From NCBI GenBank assembly GCA_001770655.1, contig MERQ01000053.1, positions 632 through 61,997 on the forward strand: 61,366 nucleotides of DNA, written 5' to 3'. The notes beneath the pieces were generated by a model. That model saw nothing but the letters and a program-made list of their open reading frames with translations. It had not been told where the DNA came from and ran no database searches. Each line of letters begins with the position of its first letter. Position 1 is the first letter of the stretch. Shown in pieces: positions 53,582 through 61,235 of the stretch. Both the position numbers and the translations under genes were made by a program. This stretch comes from Betaproteobacteria bacterium RIFCSPLOWO2_12_FULL_68_20 (GTDB lineage: Bacteria > Pseudomonadota > Gammaproteobacteria > Burkholderiales > SG8-39).

Positions 53582-54190
53582 ATGATGGATAACATACCTT
53601 ACGACCCGATCGCCACGCTCGGCCGCGCGATCGGCGCGGCGCGCCGGCGCGCGGGGCTGACCAAGACCGCGCTCGCGCGCGCGAGCGGGCTGTCGCGCCT
53701 CACCGTCGCGCAGCTCGAGGCGGGGACCGTTTCCGACCTGGGTGTGCGCAAGGTCGAGCGCGTGTTGCGCGCGCTGGGCCTCGCGCTGCGCGTGGAGCCG
53801 GCGGGCGCCGAGCCTCCCACGGGCGTAGCGCGCGTGCGCGGCGCCGCCGAGCGCTCGCCGCTGGGCCGGCTGATGATCGCCAGGGCGAGCGAGCGCCGCG
53901 CGCGCGCGCTGGAATTGGTCCGCGCGACGCTCGGTCGGTTGCGCAGGCAAGGCGTATCGGCGCGCGTCGTGGGGTCGCTGGCGAAAGGCGGCTTTCACGT
54001 GGGCTCGGACGTCGACTACCTGATCGAGAACCGGGCGGGACTGTCCGAATCGCGCATCGTGACGATCATCGAGGCTGCGATGCGTGGCTTTCCGTTCGAC
54101 GCGATCTTCGCCGAGCGCGCCGACCCGAGGCTGCTGGAGCTGATCCGAGAGGAGGCCGAGCGTGGCGCATCCGCTGTTCGCGCGGCTTGA
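53582..54190 (+). CDS. Xre-type HTH fused to a minimal nucleotidyltransferase (MntA-like antitoxin)
   Basis: A 202-residue two-domain protein. Residues about 10-70 are an Xre-type helix-turn-helix (AIGAARRRAGLTKTALARASGL and SRLTVAQLEAG). A helical linker leads to a minimal nucleotidyltransferase domain (about 105-190) with Gly131-Ser132, Asp143 and Asp145 (VVGSLAKGGFHVGSDVDYLI) and Asp173 (FPFDAIF). In the MntA-HepT system of Shewanella the nucleotidyltransferase AMPylates and silences its HEPN toxin. Free-standing MntA has no DNA-binding domain. The fusion suggests one protein both inactivates the toxin and represses the operon. It overlaps the HEPN gene by 29 bases. Confidence 0.82.
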   Translation: MMDNIPYDPIATLGRAIGAARRRAGLTKTALARASGLSRLTVAQLEAGTVSDLGVRKVERVLRALGLALRVEPAGAEPPTGVARVRGAAERSPLGRLMIARASERRARALELVRATLGRLRRQGVSARVVGSLAKGGFHVGSDVDYLIENRAGLSESRIVTIIEAAMRGFPFDAIFAERADPRLLELIREEAERGASAVRAA

Positions 54191-54688
54191 CCGGCAGCTC
54201 GAGCTCGTGCGCGTCGAGCTCGCGAACGTCAGGGAGGCGGAGCGCCGCTTCCAGGCGCTGCGCCGGCTCGATGCCGCGGGCAGACGGGGCAAGGGCCTCT
54301 ACCACGAGTGGTCGCACAATGCCAGCCTCGCCGACGGCGTCTCGGCCGTCTACACCGGGATCGAATCGGTGCTGGAGGCAATCGCCAAGGAGCTGGACGA
54401 GTACGTGCCTCGCGGCGACGCGTCGCACGCCGACCTGGTCGACGGCATGGCGGTCGCGGTAGAAGGCGTCCGACCGGCGCTGCTCGGCCCCTCGACGGCG
54501 GAGCTGGCGCACGAAGTGCGGAAATTCCGGCACGTGGTGCGCCACAAGTACGCGCTCAACCTCAGGCGCGCCGACGTGGCGAAGAACCTGAGGCTCGCAG
54601 CCAGGCTCGTGCCGGCGTTCGAGAGGGACTACCGGAGCTTCGTGAAGCGCATGCTGGAAGCCGCGCCGAGCGAACGCAGGCGGCGGCG

Positions 54689-54692
<4 letters not shown>
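54162..54692 (+). CDS. HEPN-family RNase toxin (HepT-like)
   Basis: A 176-residue all-helical HEPN protein. The nuclease motif RX4HXY reads RHVVRHKY, with Arg123, His128 and Tyr130. In HepT of Shewanella the tyrosine of this motif is the residue AMPylated by Mnt[16 protein letters not shown] (about 61-75) is the usual second-helix motif of HepT proteins. It would cleave RNA (for HepT, tRNA has been reported) unless modified by the nucleotidyltransferase. The GTG start lies inside the antitoxin gene with GAGAGGAGG 6 bases before it, a very strong ribosome binding site. It ends with a run of arginines and overlaps glpK by 4 bases. Identity of the RNA target is unknown. Confidence 0.82.
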
Positions 54693-56206
<1,514 letters not shown>

Positions 56207-56212
56207 GAAAAA

Positions 56213-56239
56213 ATTCTAGCAGGGGTTGATGTGCGTCAA
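56213..56239 (-). promoter_or_regulatory. glpK promoter
   Basis: On the minus strand TTGACG (56239 to 56234) and TAGAAT (56218 to 56213) are separated by 15 bases. The -10 ends 6 bases before the GTG start. The -35 is part of the palindrome at 56224-56241, so a regulator bound there would compete with RNA polymerase for glpK. Confidence 0.55.
56226..56239 (+). promoter_or_regulatory. FNR/CRP-type palindrome between glpK and gpsA (site 1)
   Basis: TTGAT-GTGC-GTCAA matches the FNR/ANR box TTGAT-N4-ATCAA at nine of ten positions and lies in the longer inverted repeat GGTTGA-N6-TCAACC (56224-56241). Its centre lies 41.5 bases before the gpsA ATG at 56274, where a class II activator site would be if gpsA is leaderless. 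For glpK it overlaps the -35. A second copy lies at 57262-57275. Confidence 0.55.
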
Positions 56240-56273
56240 CCGATTCCGTGTCCCGGTTTGTAGCGTTGCGCCC

Positions 56274-57290
56274 ATGGCGAGAATCGGAGTGATCGGCGCG
56301 GGCGCGTTCGGCACGGCGATGGCCTGCGTCCTGCGCCGCTCGGGGCACGAGGTCGCGATCTGGGCGCGCGAGCCCGAGGTCGCCGCCTGGATCAACGAGG
56401 ACGGGCTGAACCCGCTCTACCTGCGCGGCGTGCGGCTGGTGCCGGGGATCCGGGCGGCGAGCGATATCGGCGAGGCGGCAAGGGGCGCGGATTTCCTGCT
56501 GCTCGCCCCTCCCGCGCAACACATGCGGGAAGTGACCGCGCGACTGCGCCCGTTCGTGAAGGCCGGCACGCCGCTGGTCAGCTGCTCGAAGGGAATCGAG
56601 CGCGGCACCTGCAAGCTGATGTCGCAGGTGATCGCCGAGACTCTCCCCGGCTCTCCGGTCGCGGTGCAATCCGGGCCTTCGTTCGCCAACGAGGTCGCCT
56701 CCGATCTGCCGGCCGCGGTCACGCTCGCCTGCGCCGATGCCGCGCTCGGGGAGCGGCTCGCGCAGGCGATCCAGAACCCGCGCTTTCTGCTTTACCTGTC
56801 GGACGACGTGATCGGCGCGCACCTCGGCGGCGTGCTGAAGAACGTGCTCGCCATCGCCTGCGGCATCGCGACCGGCATGAAGCTCGGCGCGAACGCGCGC
56901 GCCATGCTGGTCGCTCGCGGCCTGGCCGAGACGGCGCGCCTGGGCATCGCCATGGGCGCGCGGCTCGAGACCTTCCTCGGCCTCTCGGGGATCGGCGACA
57001 TCGACTTGAGCTGCAACAGCGCCAATTCGCGTAACATGTCGCTCGGAATCGCGCTCGGGGAAGGGAGGAAGCTCGCCGAGGTCCTCGGCGAGCGCGTGAC
57101 GGTCCAGGAAGGCGTGCATTCGGCGGAAGGCGTGGCCGCGCTCGCGCGGCGCCACGGCGTCGAGATGCCGATCGCCGAGGCGGTGGACCGCATGCTCAAC
57201 CACGGCGCGGCGCTGGAGGAGACCATCGCCCGGCTGCTCGCCCACCCCTACCCGAGCGAAGTTGATATTTGTCAACTGGCTGCAAGATAG
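56274..57290 (+). CDS. gpsA: Glycerol-3-phosphate dehydrogenase [NAD(P)+]
   Basis: GpsA reduces dihydroxyacetone phosphate to sn-glycerol-3-phosphate for phospholipid synthesis. The 338-residue protein has the Rossmann motif GAGAFGTAMA, the SCSKGIE motif, GPSFANEVA and the catalytic lysine in LKNVLAIACGIATG, plus the SCNSANSRNMSLG C-terminal block. The ATG at 56274 begins MARIGVIGAG as usual; the upstream in-frame start is unlikely. It is divergent from glpK and is followed 39 bases later by an ABC importer. The 3' end carries the second palindrome. Confidence 0.95.
   Translation: MARIGVIGAGAFGTAMACVLRRSGHEVAIWAREPEVAAWINEDGLNPLYLRGVRLVPGIRAASDIGEAARGADFLLLAPPAQHMREVTARLRPFVKAGTPLVSCSKGIERGTCKLMSQVIAETLPGSPVAVQSGPSFANEVASDLPAAVTLACADAALGERLAQAIQNPRFLLYLSDDVIGAHLGGVLKNVLAIACGIATGMKLGANARAMLVARGLAETARLGIAMGARLETFLGLSGIGDIDLSCNSANSRNMSLGIALGEGRKLAEVLGERVTVQEGVHSAEGVAALARRHGVEMPIAEAVDRMLNHGAALEETIARLLAHPYPSEVDICQLAAR
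57262..57275 (+). promoter_or_regulatory. FNR/CRP-type palindrome before the ABC importer (site 2)
   Basis: TTGAT-ATTT-GTCAA lies within the last codons of gpsA, inside the inverted repeat AGTTGA-N6-TCAACT (57260-57277). Both half-sites are identical to those of site 1. With the centre at 57268.5, a class II arrangement would place the transcription start near 57310, just before the strong ribosome binding site of the next gene (AAGGAGGG at 57318-57325). Confidence 0.5.
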
Positions 57291-57329
57291 GCCCGGCACG
57301 ATGGCGGGGTCTCACACAAGGAGGGTTCG

Positions 57330-58454
57330 ATGATTGCGAACTGGAAACGCGCAGCCGCGGCGCTCGCCGCGGGTCTCGCGATCGCGGCTCCGGCCGCGGC
57401 GCAGCAGATCGAGAACGAGCTGGTGCTCATCACGCCGGTCGCGAAGACGCTCACCGACCCGTCGCTCGCGGAGTTCGCAAAGTACGCGAAGGAGAAGTGG
57501 AACGTCACGGTCAAGACGAGCGCGCTCGCGGCCGGGACGCCGGTCGCCTACGGCCGCATCGTCGAGTGGAAGGGCCGGCCGCAGGCCGATATCTTCTGGG
57601 GGGGCGAGAGCGCGCTGTTCGACAAGCTGACCGAGCAGAATCTGCTCGCGAAGCTCGATTTGCCGAAAAGCGTGGTCGACTCGATCCCGGCGGCGATCGG
57701 CAAGCCGAAGGCGATCCCGCTCAAGGACCCGAAAGGTTTCTGGATCGGCACGGTGCTCGAGCCCTACGGCCTGGTCTACAACCCGAAGCTCTACCAGCGC
57801 CTCGGGCTGCAGCCGCCCAAGGACTGGGACGACCTGCTCGATCCGAAGCTGAAAGGCAACGTCGCGCAGTGCGCGCCGACGCGCTCCTCGAGCAGCCATG
57901 CGACCTACGAAGTGATCCTGCAGCGCGACGGCGACCCCAAGGGCTGGGAGTTCCTCAAGCGCCTGGCCGGCAACACCGGGATCTTCACCGCGCGCAGCCG
58001 TGACGTGCCGTCGGTGGTCGCCAAGGGCGAGTTCGCCGCGGGGTTCGCGGTGCCGAGCTACATGGCGTTCGAGGACCGGCTCGCCGGCTTCGACATCAAG
58101 TTCGTCGCGCCGAAGACGGCGTGGATCACCCCCGAGCCGATCGCCGTCCTGGCGGGTGCCCCCCATCCCAAGGCGGCGCTCGCGTTCATCGAGTTCATGC
58201 TTTCCGAGCGCGGGCAGCGCGTGGCGATGGAGCGCGGCGTGTTCCCGATCTTCCCGAAGTTCAAGGTGCAGGGCGCGCCCGGCTCGAAGGCGGAGATGGC
58301 GGTCGAGTTCACCGGCGGGCTGCGCTCGTACTTCGACGTGGAAGTGACCAACATCTACGACGACGGCATCGCGCAGAAGCGCTACGCCGAGGTCAACTCG
58401 CAATACCGCAAGGACATCGAGTCGGCCTGGGAAGAGCTGAAGAAGAAATACTGA
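57330..58454 (+). CDS. ABC transporter periplasmic solute-binding protein
   Basis: A 374-residue extracellular solute-binding protein with a signal peptide (about 1-25, cut after AAAQ). The two-lobed fold is suggested by ADIFWGGESALFDKL, GTVLEPYGLVYNPKLYQRLG and AVPSYMAFEDRLAGFDIKFVAPKTAWITPEPIAVLAG. It belongs to the broad AfuA/FbpA-like family 1 group, but the tandem tyrosines of ferric-binding FbpA are not visible, so the ligand is uncertain. AAGGAGGG precedes the ATG. It is the first gene of a binding protein-ATPase-permease unit that lies after gpsA and a shared palindrome. Confidence 0.87.
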   Translation: MIANWKRAAAALAAGLAIAAPAAAQQIENELVLITPVAKTLTDPSLAEFAKYAKEKWNVTVKTSALAAGTPVAYGRIVEWKGRPQADIFWGGESALFDKLTEQNLLAKLDLPKSVVDSIPAAIGKPKAIPLKDPKGFWIGTVLEPYGLVYNPKLYQRLGLQPPKDWDDLLDPKLKGNVAQCAPTRSSSSHATYEVILQRDGDPKGWEFLKRLAGNTGIFTARSRDVPSVVAKGEFAAGFAVPSYMAFEDRLAGFDIKFVAPKTAWITPEPIAVLAGAPHPKAALAFIEFMLSERGQRVAMERGVFPIFPKFKVQGAPGSKAEMAVEFTGGLRSYFDVEVTNIYDDGIAQKRYAEVNSQYRKDIESAWEELKKKY

Positions 58455-58485: not shown

Positions 58486-59562
58486 TTGCGCATCTCGGTT
58501 CACAGCCTCAGCAAGAGCTTCGGCCCGCTGGTCGTCGTCAACCGGGCGAGCTTTTCCATCGAGGAGGGTGAGCTGTTCACCCTGCTCGGCCCCTCGGGCT
58601 GCGGCAAGACCACGCTGCTGCGCCTGATCGCCGGCTTCAACGCCCCGGACGAAGGCGAGATCCGCTTCGACGGCGCGCGCGTCAACGAGATGCCGCCCGA
58701 CGAGCGCGGCATCGGCATGGTGTTCCAGAACTACGCGCTGTGGCCGCACATGACGGTGTTCGAGAACGTCTCCTACGGCCTGAAGCTGCGCAAGATCGGC
58801 CGCGCCGAGATCGACGAGCGGGTGAAGGGCGTCCTGGAGAAGGTCAAGCTCGGCGGGCTGGGCGGGCGCTATCCCGGGCAGCTCTCGGGCGGGCAGCAGC
58901 AGCGCGTGGCGCTCGCGCGCGCGCTGGTGCTCAATCCCAGGATCCTGCTGCTCGACGAGCCGCTCTCCAACCTCGACGCGAAAGTCCGCATCCAGGTGCG
59001 CGCCGAGATCAGGAAACTGCAGAAGGAGCTCGGCATCACCACCATCTACGTGACGCACGACCAGGAGGAGGCGCTCACGCTGTCGGACCGCATCGCGGTG
59101 TTCAACCAGGGGATCGTGCAGCAGGTCGGTCCGCCCAAGGAGCTCTACGAGCGCCCCGCCAACCGCTTCGTCGCCGACTTCATCGGCATCAACAACATGA
59201 TCGAGGGATCGGTCGAGGCGATCGACGCGGGCGAGCGCAGGCTGCGCGTGAAGACGGTGCTGGGCGAGCTCGCGGCGCTCTACGACGAGCGCTTCAAGGC
59301 GGGCGACCGGTGCGTCCTGTGCGTGCGCCCGGAGAATGCCTCGGTCGACGGCGAGGCTGCGGCCGGGCGCAACGCGCTCAAGGGCCGGATCGCGTTCGCC
59401 GCCTACATGGGCAACACGCTGCGCTACGACGTGGACCTGGGGCAGGGCGTCACTTTCAAGGCAGACGTGCGCGACCCCTGGCACCATGAGGAGCTGCCGA
59501 TGGGCAGCGCCGCCACGGTGAGCTTCCCAGCGACCAGCACCGTCGCCATTCCGGCGTCGTGA
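58486..59562 (+). CDS. ABC transporter ATP-binding protein
   Basis: A 358-residue ATPase of the MalK/PotA/FbpC group. Walker A is GPSGCGKTT, the signature is LSGGQQQRVALARAL, Walker B is ILLLDEPLSN, and the switch histidine is in YVTHDQEEAL. The C-terminal 110 residues form a TOBE domain with RPENASV. The start is a TTG, 31 bases after the binding protein, with no clear ribosome binding site. It energises the two-fold permease that follows. Confidence 0.93.
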   Translation: MRISVHSLSKSFGPLVVVNRASFSIEEGELFTLLGPSGCGKTTLLRLIAGFNAPDEGEIRFDGARVNEMPPDERGIGMVFQNYALWPHMTVFENVSYGLKLRKIGRAEIDERVKGVLEKVKLGGLGGRYPGQLSGGQQQRVALARALVLNPRILLLDEPLSNLDAKVRIQVRAEIRKLQKELGITTIYVTHDQEEALTLSDRIAVFNQGIVQQVGPPKELYERPANRFVADFIGINNMIEGSVEAIDAGERRLRVKTVLGELAALYDERFKAGDRCVLCVRPENASVDGEAAAGRNALKGRIAFAAYMGNTLRYDVDLGQGVTFKADVRDPWHHEELPMGSAATVSFPATSTVAIPAS

Positions 59563-61235
59563 TGAAGTTGCCGCGCGCCACCCCGGCGGCCCTCGGCTTC
59601 GTCCTCATCTGGACGTTCCTCGCCGTCTTCGTCCTCTACCCGCTCACGCGCATCTTCTACGACGCCTTCACCAACGAGGCGGGTGCGTTCACCCTGGCAA
59701 ACTTCCACGAGTTCTTCACCGACCGCTTCTACCTGCGCTCGTTCTGGAACTCGATGGTGCTGGGCGTGGCGGCGGTCGTCACCACCTCGGTGGTCGGCGT
59801 CACGGTCGCGTTCCTGCTGGTGCGCTACGAGTTTCCGTACCGCAACCTGTTCTCCTACCTCACGATGCTGCCGATGATCCTGCCGCCGCTGGTCGGAGTG
59901 CTCGGCTTCGTGTTCATCCTCGGGCGCGCGGGCACGGTGAACGTGCTGCTCATGGACTGGTTCGACCTCACGCACCCGATCAACTTCATGTACGGCATGC
60001 AAGGCGTGCTGCTGGTCGAGACGGTGCACCTCTTCCCCATGATCACGCTGAGCGTGCTCGACGCGCTTTCCAAGGTGGACCCGGCGCTGGAGGAGGCGGC
60101 GCAGGGCATGGGCGCGAAGGGCTGGCGCAGGTTCCGCGACATCACGATGCCGCTGATGACGCCGGGCTACGTGTCCGGGGCGCTGCTCGTTTTCATCTGG
60201 ACCTTCGCCGACTTCATCACGCCGCTGGTGGTCGGGGTGCAGGACCTGCTCGCCGTGCAGGCCTACCTCAACATCGTGCAGTTCGTCGACCGGCGCATCT
60301 TCCGCATGGGCATCGTGATCTCGGCGCTGCTGGTGGTGCTCGCGATCGTGTTCGTGCTGCTGGCGCGCCAGTACGTGTCGATCAAGGACTACAGCTCGCT
60401 CGCCTACTCGAAGATCGAGCGCCGGCGCCTGGGGCCCGCCAAGCGCCGGCTCGCGGTCGGGTTCCTCTCGCTCCTCATGTTCGTATCGATCATGCCCCAG
60501 GTCGGCGTGGCGCTCGCCGCGGTCGGCCGCGGCTGGGCGCTGACCCCTTTGCCGCTCGAGTACACGCTCGAATTCTTCGAGCAGGTGAGCATCGAGACGC
60601 CCAAGTTCATCGTCAATTCGATCCTGTACTCCGGGCTCGCGGTGCTCGTCTGCCTCGCGGTCGGCGTGCCGATGGCCTGGATCATGAGCCGCACGCGCGC
60701 GCCCGGGCGCGCCTCGATGGACGCGCTCACCACGTTGATGCTCGCCATCCCGGGCACCGCGATCGGCATCGCCTACATCCGCGCCTTCAATTTCCCGCTG
60801 CCGGTCTTCGACGTGGCGCTCACCAGCGTGTGGATCATCCTGCCGCTGGTGCTCGCGGTGCGGCGCCTGCCGTACACCGTGCGGGGAAGCTTCTCGTCGC
60901 TGCTCCTGGTGCACCCGTCGATGGAGGAGGCGGCGAGGAACGTCGGCGCGGGCGGCCTGCGCACCTTCTGGGACATCACGGTGCCTCTGGTATGGAAGGG
61001 CATCCTGGTGGGAGCTTTGTTCTCGTTCCTCACCTCGATCCAGGAGGCCTCCGCCACGCTCTTTCTCACGCTGGGCGGCTGGGAGATGATCCCGTTCGGC
61101 ATCTTCACCTTCTACATCGCCGGCTCGCAGAGCCAGGCGGCCGCGCTCGGCGTGATCCTGATCGCGGTGTGCGCGTTGAGCCTGTACGTGGTGAACCGGG
61201 TCGCCGGGACGCGCGTCGGCGGGCTGTTCGGCTGA
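59562..61235 (+). CDS. ABC transporter permease (fused, 12 membrane segments)
   Basis: A 557-residue integral membrane protein with two homologous halves, each with six membrane segments and one EAA loop. The loops read EEAAQGMGAKGWRRFRDITMP (near residue 185) and EEAARNVGAGGLRTFWDITVP (near residue 455), which dock on the ATPase. Such fused permeases are typical of FbpB-type importers for iron, thiamine, phosphonates or related ligands. The ATG overlaps the ATPase stop by one base (TGATG); a GTG three bases upstream is also possible. The ligand is not known. Confidence 0.92.
   Translation: MKLPRATPAALGFVLIWTFLAVFVLYPLTRIFYDAFTNEAGAFTLANFHEFFTDRFYLRSFWNSMVLGVAAVVTTSVVGVTVAFLLVRYEFPYRNLFSYLTMLPMILPPLVGVLGFVFILGRAGTVNVLLMDWFDLTHPINFMYGMQGVLLVETVHLFPMITLSVLDALSKVDPALEEAAQGMGAKGWRRFRDITMPLMTPGYVSGALLVFIWTFADFITPLVVGVQDLLAVQAYLNIVQFVDRRIFRMGIVISALLVVLAIVFVLLARQYVSIKDYSSLAYSKIERRRLGPAKRRLAVGFLSLLMFVSIMPQVGVALAAVGRGWALTPLPLEYTLEFFEQVSIETPKFIVNSILYSGLAVLVCLAVGVPMAWIMSRTRAPGRASMDALTTLMLAIPGTAIGIAYIRAFNFPLPVFDVALTSVWIILPLVLAVRRLPYTVRGSFSSLLLVHPSMEEAARNVGAGGLRTFWDITVPLVWKGILVGALFSFLTSIQEASATLFLTLGGWEMIPFGIFTFYIAGSQSQAAALGVILIAVCALSLYVVNRVAGTRVGGLFG

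Follow-up and report, generated by a model that had tools for sequence, protein, structure and literature searches.

Two matching palindromes flank a gene for glycerol-3-phosphate dehydrogenase in this betaproteobacterial genome, and the question they raise is which regulator would bind them and which of the surrounding genes it would control. In an initial annotation of the window, by which we mean the whole stretch of 61,366 nucleotides that was analysed, they were read as FNR/ANR boxes through which a regulator could repress the glycerol kinase gene while activating the dehydrogenase gene and an ABC importer. On comparative grounds we think it likely that the palindromes are class II sites of FNR, an ANR-type Crp/Fnr protein, which would activate the dehydrogenase gene, here called gpsA2, together with the importer; that the first site would in addition block glpK is plausible from its position. 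The following elements are concerned.

54689..56206, minus strand: glpK, glycerol kinase, GTG at 56206 (NCBIfam GlpK 748 bits, cut-off 498)
56226-56239, no strand assigned: site 1, FNR-type box TTGATGTGCGTCAA (pattern match; orthologue conservation)
56274..57290, plus strand: gpsA2, second NAD(P)-dependent glycerol-3-phosphate dehydrogenase (NCBIfam 401 bits, cut-off 257)
57262-57275, no strand assigned: site 2, FNR-type box TTGATATTTGTCAA (pattern match; box before related importers)

Both palindromes are present as the initial annotation had reported them and are the only exact matches to TTGAT-N4-GTCAA in the window, where up to one mismatch yields four matches against 0.73 expected. Each agrees with nine of the ten positions of TTGAT-N4-ATCAA, the ANR/FNR consensus as printed in PMC6110920, so that the earlier count of nine is right. 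Site 1 is part of the 67 bases that separate the GTG of glpK (56206, minus strand) from the ATG of gpsA2 (56274), its centre 41.5 nt upstream of the latter and 26.5 nt upstream of the former. Site 2 does precede the binding-protein gene of the importer, as had been noted, with its centre 61.5 nt upstream of the ATG at 57330, but it had been overlooked that it is not intergenic and falls within the last codons of gpsA2 (stop codon 57288-57290). Equally overlooked were the probable leaderless state of the gpsA mRNA, discussed below, and the fact that this gene is a second paralogue; the other copy in the same genome, at G000:C3:6326-7279, is 44% identical.

The box across the genome and its relatives

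The exact word TTGAT-N4-GTCAA occurs 23 times in the 3.48-Mb genome, against a single occurrence of the reversed word, and the wider pattern TTGAY-N4-RTCAA is found at 50 sites against 3 for its reversed counterpart. Four of these 50 boxes lie inside called genes, where about 45 would be expected at 89% coding, a figure that is the called-gene cover of the loci looked at, with genes called by a home-made, simple codon-usage caller. The frequency in coding DNA is thus not that of chance; site 2 itself is one of the four, and another is the box of hemN, where the called gene is on the opposite strand. Across 98 family genomes, 3394 boxes stand against 255 reversed controls.

Boxes in the window genome adjoin hemN (588 bits, cut-off 325) and ccoN (795 bits, cut-off 583; both NCBIfam), which are classic FNR/ANR targets. 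Further genes behind boxes encode two universal stress proteins, a CBS protein and an MtrC-like multihaem cytochrome. As an observation of its own, three of the 98 genomes have box totals far above the rest, namely G095 (138), G041 (117) and G042 (105), the next having 82; Fnr-like matches at E <= 1e-40 number four in G095, one in G041 and two in G042.

Candidate regulators

Five genes of the window genome carry a Pfam Crp helix-turn-helix, and only one of them, L024, scores above the NCBIfam Fnr cut-off (232 bits, cut-off 228). Its cysteines are found at positions 17, 20, 26 and 119, with no others, and its recognition helix reads ETVSR, in agreement with the TTGAT-binding motif ETxSR described in PMC7349173. 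With its four cysteines and ETVSR, this protein is the FNR/ANR homologue that the reading of the palindromes calls for, and we infer that FNR binds sites 1 and 2. Box density in the family also follows the presence of Fnr: the median is 11.3 boxes per Mb in the 68 of 98 genomes with an Fnr match at E <= 1e-40 and 4.5 in the 30 without (Mann-Whitney p = 4e-9, a statistic that ignores the relatedness of the genomes; reversed control p = 0.28). Few boxes are found alongside Fnr in G006 (5, with 5 controls) and G007 (9, with 8 controls), and G015 and G019 carry many boxes, 50 and 39, without an Fnr match.

Such box-rich genomes would fit a different view, in which another Crp/Fnr protein, FixK- or DNR-like, is the main regulator and the signal is nitric oxide or another cue. 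A protein to consider in this respect is the Crp-like regulator at L164:2368-2979, which has ETLSR near its C-terminus and whose gene has an FNR-type box 28.5 nt upstream of its own ATG; by these features it is possibly an autoregulated second reader of the FNR-type box. Its standing as main regulator is weakened by the search results, since no NCBIfam model matched it at E <= 1e-12 and cNMP_binding was the only Pfam match at E <= 1e-5. The dependence of box density on Fnr presence in the 98 genomes and the position of boxes beside hemN and ccoN also argue for FNR, and we hold it improbable that a different member of the family is in charge.

Conservation of site 1 upstream of gpsA2

Thirteen distinct gpsA2 orthologues at >= 59% identity, the window included, were compared: nine in the 98 family genomes and four on further contigs (L064-L067), L068 being the G002 locus. 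In nine of the 13, again counting the window, the ATG lies 40.5 or 41.5 nt downstream of the centre of a box that deviates from the pattern at no more than one position, so that site 1 is conserved together with its distance from the start codon; when the 13 upstream regions were resampled 2000 times under a first-order Markov model, no such arrangement arose. Pairwise likeness among the nine boxed loci is 88% in the half-sites, 39% in the 4-base spacer and 36% in the flanks; as these loci were picked for having a box, the spacer and flank figures are informative and the half-site figure less so. The genes adjoining gpsA2 vary among the orthologue genomes, and the box is retained without an adjacent glpK in G019, G072 and G073.

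The four orthologues without a box are L066, L067, L068 (G002) and L147 (G069). In L067, gpsA2 lies 28 nt after a gene of the HAD family, in L066 it follows a repeat-rich stretch, and in L068 and L147 a glpK-like gene is 17 bases from gpsA2. Two genomes with a boxed gpsA2, G019 and G094, gave no Fnr match at E <= 1e-12 with the query that matched 68 of the 98 genomes; they are 89% and 63% complete. Among more distant gpsA relatives, a search within 150 nt that allowed up to one mismatch found no box at any of 30 loci, namely L069-L095 and L126-L128 out of the 75 beyond L068, with crude picking of the start codons.

It could be argued that the palindromes are chance matches or neutral relics, as the window holds just two exact sites and four of the 13 orthologues do without site 1. 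Set against this are the enrichment of the box, the half-sites that are kept while the spacers diverge, and the fixed spacing. A chance origin is rejected on the enrichment and the conserved spacing; it is extremely improbable, and the palindromes at sites 1 and 2 are almost certainly real.

Promoter geometry

The position of site 1 relative to gpsA2 gains meaning from a putative promoter element downstream of it.

56261..56266, plus strand: predicted gpsA2 -10 element, TAGCGT, starting exactly 21 nt after the box

The same offset recurs at other boxes. A TAnnnT begins at offset 21 on 12 of 57 gene-facing sides in the window genome and on 18 of 72 in relatives, where gene-facing means that a called start lies within 150 nt and where the set of relatives includes the gpsA2 and importer loci; every other offset accounts for 0-3 cases on these sides. 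On sides with no called start in 150 nt, TAnnnT at 21 was seen in 1 of 43 cases in the window genome and 7 of 75 in relatives. With TAnnnT at this offset, the transcription start would fall about 41.5 nt downstream of the box, which is the class II position; of the E. coli promoters activated by FNR whose start is known, 19 of 23 have their site at -41.5 +/- 4 according to PMC3688515. For gpsA2, the distance of 21 nt between site 1 and TAGCGT puts the predicted transcription start on the A of its ATG (56274). Neither offset 21 nor offset 22 shows a TAnnnT in four of the nine boxed gpsA2 orthologues (L144, L146, L148 and L149).

A GntR-family protein, which the initial annotation had named as the main alternative, could in principle use the palindromes as operators, and a 5+4+5 inverted repeat taken by itself is compatible with that. 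The genome-wide pattern of boxes speaks against it, however: 50 sites, hemN and ccoN among their neighbours and a fixed distance of 21 nt to the -10 element are what a global class II activator would leave behind, and not a local repressor. We therefore reject GntR operators, to which we assign hardly any probability.

Predicted leaderless transcripts

The predicted start at the ATG goes together with two features of gpsA2 in the window, which has no Shine-Dalgarno sequence and has its -10 element right before the start codon; judged from this arrangement, the gpsA2 mRNA is probably leaderless and begins at the ATG. In the window genome, a Shine-Dalgarno sequence precedes none of the 12 starts that lie 38-46 nt from a box and 14 of the 23 that lie at 50-80 nt (Fisher p = 6e-4), and a TAnnnT close upstream of the start codon occurs in 5 of the 12 and in none of the 23. 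Relatives, in a count based on 60 boxes of which 5 are inside called genes, gave 0 of 8 at 38-46 nt (four of the eight being gpsA2) and 20 of 23 at 50-80 nt for the Shine-Dalgarno sequence. The start codons in these counts come from a caller that rewards Shine-Dalgarno sequences, and some of them are wrong.

Leaderless mRNAs as such are already known in betaproteobacteria from the mapped transcription starts of Burkholderia cenocepacia, where according to PMC4603805 the start coincides with the annotated start codon in 72 genes and lies at most 10 nt from it in 42 more; 24 of these genes are tRNAs. Tentatively, and with more doubt than confidence, we suggest that the FNR regulon of this betaproteobacterial family consists of two sorts of promoter, those whose transcripts have a leader with a Shine-Dalgarno sequence and those with the box about 41.5 nt upstream of the start codon, at which FNR would set up leaderless transcripts. 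No report that joins FNR to leaderless mRNAs was apparent from the titles and the beginnings of the abstracts among the open-licence matches listed.

A separate observation concerns the gene at L171:2421-2975, presumably a hibernation-factor-like gene, for which no NCBIfam match was found at E <= 1e-12. Its box lies 32.5 nt before the called GTG; counted from an ATG that follows in frame 9 nt further on, the distance would be 41.5, and by this spacing it is possibly another leaderless FNR target.

Site 2 and the importer

Downstream of gpsA2, the importer genes follow site 2 in this order.

57297..57302, plus strand: predicted importer -10 element, CACGAT, weak, 21 nt after the box
57318..57324, plus strand: Shine-Dalgarno sequence AAGGAGG of the binding-protein gene (sequence)
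57330..58454, plus strand: solute-binding protein, AfuA/P5PA-like (nearest solved chains; genomic context)
58486..59562, plus strand: importer ATPase (best match PhnT2, 383 bits)
59559..61235, plus strand: importer permease, a fusion of two domains (two BPD_transp_1 stretches)

For the ATPase, the general potA model is alone above its cut-off among the best 25 of 188 families. The predicted transcription start of the importer is at about 57310. The weak -10 element of the window has better counterparts in four relatives, which show TAGATT, TAGACT, TAAGCT and TACGCT at the same offset; the importer box of G002 has no -10 element at offset 21.

Matches to the binding protein at E <= 1e-60 are found in eight of the 98 family genomes (nine matches), and the nine importer loci examined are these matches minus L192, whose start was not located, plus L065. 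A box precedes the importer in five of the nine, namely in the window, in G095, where it is shared with gpsA2, and in G048, G014 and G050. The importers without a box of their own are those of G073, L065, G111 and G112. In G073 and L065 the importer lies downstream of a boxed gpsA2, and G111 and G112 (77% and 83% complete), which have the importer without box or gpsA2, gave no Fnr match; the same holds at E <= 1e-40 for the four other genomes of their genus.

A class I arrangement, with site 2 at -61.5 of a leaderless binding-protein mRNA, was considered and rejected in view of the strong Shine-Dalgarno sequence, and because the distance from box to importer ATG varies over the five boxed loci (61.5, 66.5, 73.5, 75.5 and 66.5 nt) and TAnnnT is present at offset 21 in four of the five. 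The proposal that one regulator activates both gpsA and the importer fits the predicted class II geometry at both sites.

Glycerol kinase on the other side of site 1

A promoter can also be predicted on the opposite strand.

56213..56218, minus strand: predicted glpK -10 element, TAGAAT, with TGC at 56219-56221 (extended -10; sequence)

This element ends 6 nt upstream of the GTG, and from its position the glpK mRNA, too, is probably leaderless. A TAnnnT ending 4-10 nt upstream of the start is found at 25 of 30 family glpK loci, window included, these being the best 30 examined, with a glpK match in 80 of the 98 genomes. FNR bound at site 1 would block glpK because the site overlaps the spacer and the -35 region of the predicted promoter. 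The repression proposed in the initial annotation thus agrees with the overlap between box and predicted promoter, but it is not borne out by comparison: none of the 29 other family loci examined has a box upstream of glpK, so that the window stands alone among the 30. By its geometry, repression through site 1 is plausible.

It is therefore a serious possibility, to which we still give somewhat less than even weight, that site 1 serves gpsA2 alone and that the overlap with glpK is an accident of back-to-back leaderless promoters. This would rival the glpK step only and is compatible with FNR activating gpsA2 and the importer. In its favour, the 29 other glpK loci lack a box while TAnnnT before the start is kept in 25 of 30, and gpsA2 is boxed with no glpK adjacent in the three genomes named above. 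Against it stands the place of the box, which lies between -35 and -10 with its centre 26.5 nt upstream of the predicted glpK start, a position at which a bound protein should exclude RNA polymerase; the same argument has been made for cld in PMC7349173.

On the far side of glpK, an overlapping gene pair in the window at 53582-54692 encodes first a protein that joins an XRE-type helix-turn-helix to a putative nucleotidyltransferase and then a 176-aa protein. We take the GSLAKG...SDVD motif found there to be that of a nucleotidyltransferase; the XRE-type protein has a match to the Y4mF antitoxin below the cut-off and a weaker one besides, and the 176-aa protein has no NCBIfam match. From these features the pair resembles an MNT-HEPN toxin-antitoxin system.

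Substrate of the importer and gene context

The importer is found near gpsA2 in the window, G073, L065 and G095, and near glpK in the window and, divergently, in G111 and G112. In G014, G048 and G050, glpA, glpB and two electron-transfer-type genes come first and the boxed importer follows. GlpA scores 481 bits in G014 and 482 in G050 (cut-off 425) and 395, below the cut-off, in G048, where the protein as called is without its N-terminus and the genome match is full length and 86% identical to that of G014; GlpB is above its cut-off of 345 in all three (537, 531 and 521 bits in G014, G048 and G050). In G002, gpsA2 is the last gene of a cluster that also contains genes whose best matches, below the cut-offs, are UgpC and UgpB; a box lies 77.5 nt upstream of the UgpB-like gene. 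Since the importer clusters with gpsA2, glpK or glpAB across genomes, its solute is probably glycerol-3-phosphate-like, and the binding protein is predicted to take up a phosphate ester of this kind.

The closest solved binding proteins are 6wce (P5PA) and 4r72-4r75 (AfuA), from the P5PAB and AfuABC importers of Actinobacillus (PMC8427247, PMC4546632); P5PA binds pyridoxal phosphate and AfuA sugar phosphates. With the AfuA contact residues taken from PMC4546632, the window protein has Thr and Ser at the phosphate contacts S37 and T150, which are in this sense kept, whereas it has Ser, Tyr and Thr at the sugar contacts H205, D206 and E229, in an alignment read by eye with the chain numbering shifted by 2. 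As the sugar contacts are replaced, a hexose phosphate is an unlikely solute.

The window genome encodes an aerobic-type GlpD (L276, 705 bits, cut-off 360), and this GlpD, 29% identical, is the sole match to GlpA there at E <= 1e-8. The same importer follows glpA and glpB in G048, G014 and G050, whereas the window genome has GlpD instead, and from this distribution GpsA2 seems to stand in place of GlpABC.

Two further observations concern this gene context. The glpA-glpB clusters at L268:1119-6337, L269:6318-11709 and L271:2958-8389 continue with a protein whose C-terminal iron-sulphur part resembles HdrC/GlpC, an HdrB-like protein and the importer, an unusual electron-acceptor arm that replaces the standard GlpC; the last two proteins before the importer were examined in L269 only. 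A family of HAD hydrolases also accompanies the glycerol-3-phosphate genes. Besides the copy of the window genome itself (L276:410-1183), seven copies 56-74% identical to it occur, at L281:360-1193, L270:10112-10888 and L268:12197-13006 and, upstream of gpsA2, at L064:9094-9903, L065:9044-9889, L066:1122-1934 and L067:9169-9972. In G000 and G019 the gene neighbours glpD, in G112 it follows the importer, and in G048 it lies two genes beyond the importer. Our guess is that it encodes a glycerol-3-phosphate phosphatase.

Proposed regulation and relation to known systems

The regulation that we propose would operate as follows. With oxygen, GlpK and GlpD would handle glycerol. When oxygen is low, FNR would occupy site 1, its centre 41.5 bases before the start, contact RNA polymerase and turn on gpsA2, and FNR on site 2 would turn on the importer genes from a second promoter that starts about 20 bases before the binding-protein ATG. 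On site 1 it would at the same time cover the spacer and the -35 region of the divergent glpK promoter and may so block glpK. Glycerol-3-phosphate brought in by the importer may then be oxidised by GpsA2, with NAD(P), to dihydroxyacetone phosphate, GpsA2 thus taking the place that GlpABC has elsewhere.

Class II sites of FNR are well established, and ANR-driven uptake of glycerol-3-phosphate is known already in Pseudomonas aeruginosa. The FNR sites of E. coli narG, dmsA and nirB are tabulated in PMC3688515, and the box of Ideonella cld, TTGACTTAAATCAA, agrees in 9 of 10 positions and has proved responsive to FNR in a reporter (PMC7349173). The sites described here share with these promoters a box TTGAT/C-N4-RTCAA, a predicted start at 41.5 and a -10 element in the matching place, as well as an Fnr with four cysteines and ETxSR; they differ in that the start of gpsA2 is predicted at the ATG itself and that the target is a second gpsA. 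In P. aeruginosa, ANR activates glpT (PMC6110920), likewise a case in which an oxygen-sensing Crp/Fnr protein raises glycerol-3-phosphate uptake under anoxia. GlpT, however, is a symporter and its box, TTCAT-ttac-GAAAA, is poor, whereas here an ABC importer and a dehydrogenase are found with near-consensus boxes.

Judged by titles and the beginnings of abstracts among the open-licence papers listed, no report presents gpsA as an FNR/ANR target, and the passages on gpsA in PMC7567609, PMC6922529 and PMC6643234 do not give it as one. E. coli gpsA is said in PMC7567609 to be CRP-activated, FNR being unnamed in that passage. Both the target, a second gpsA with an importer, and the recurrent leaderless register look new.

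For the family, the finding suggests that PhnS2/AfuA-type importers should be re-annotated as importers of glycerol-3-phosphate-like solutes, and it points to a recurrent glycerol-3-phosphate module, made up of the importer, GpsA2 or GlpAB, GlpK and the putative HAD phosphatase, that would be tied to oxygen through one type of box. The second, catabolic-looking GpsA thereby gains a regulatory context. If the two sorts of FNR promoter are real, loss of oxygen would, in a fixed set of genes that includes gpsA2, switch transcription and also the way in which translation is initiated, and a class of FNR promoters with a spacing from which leaderless mRNAs can be predicted would make transcription starts readable from sequence in uncultured genomes.
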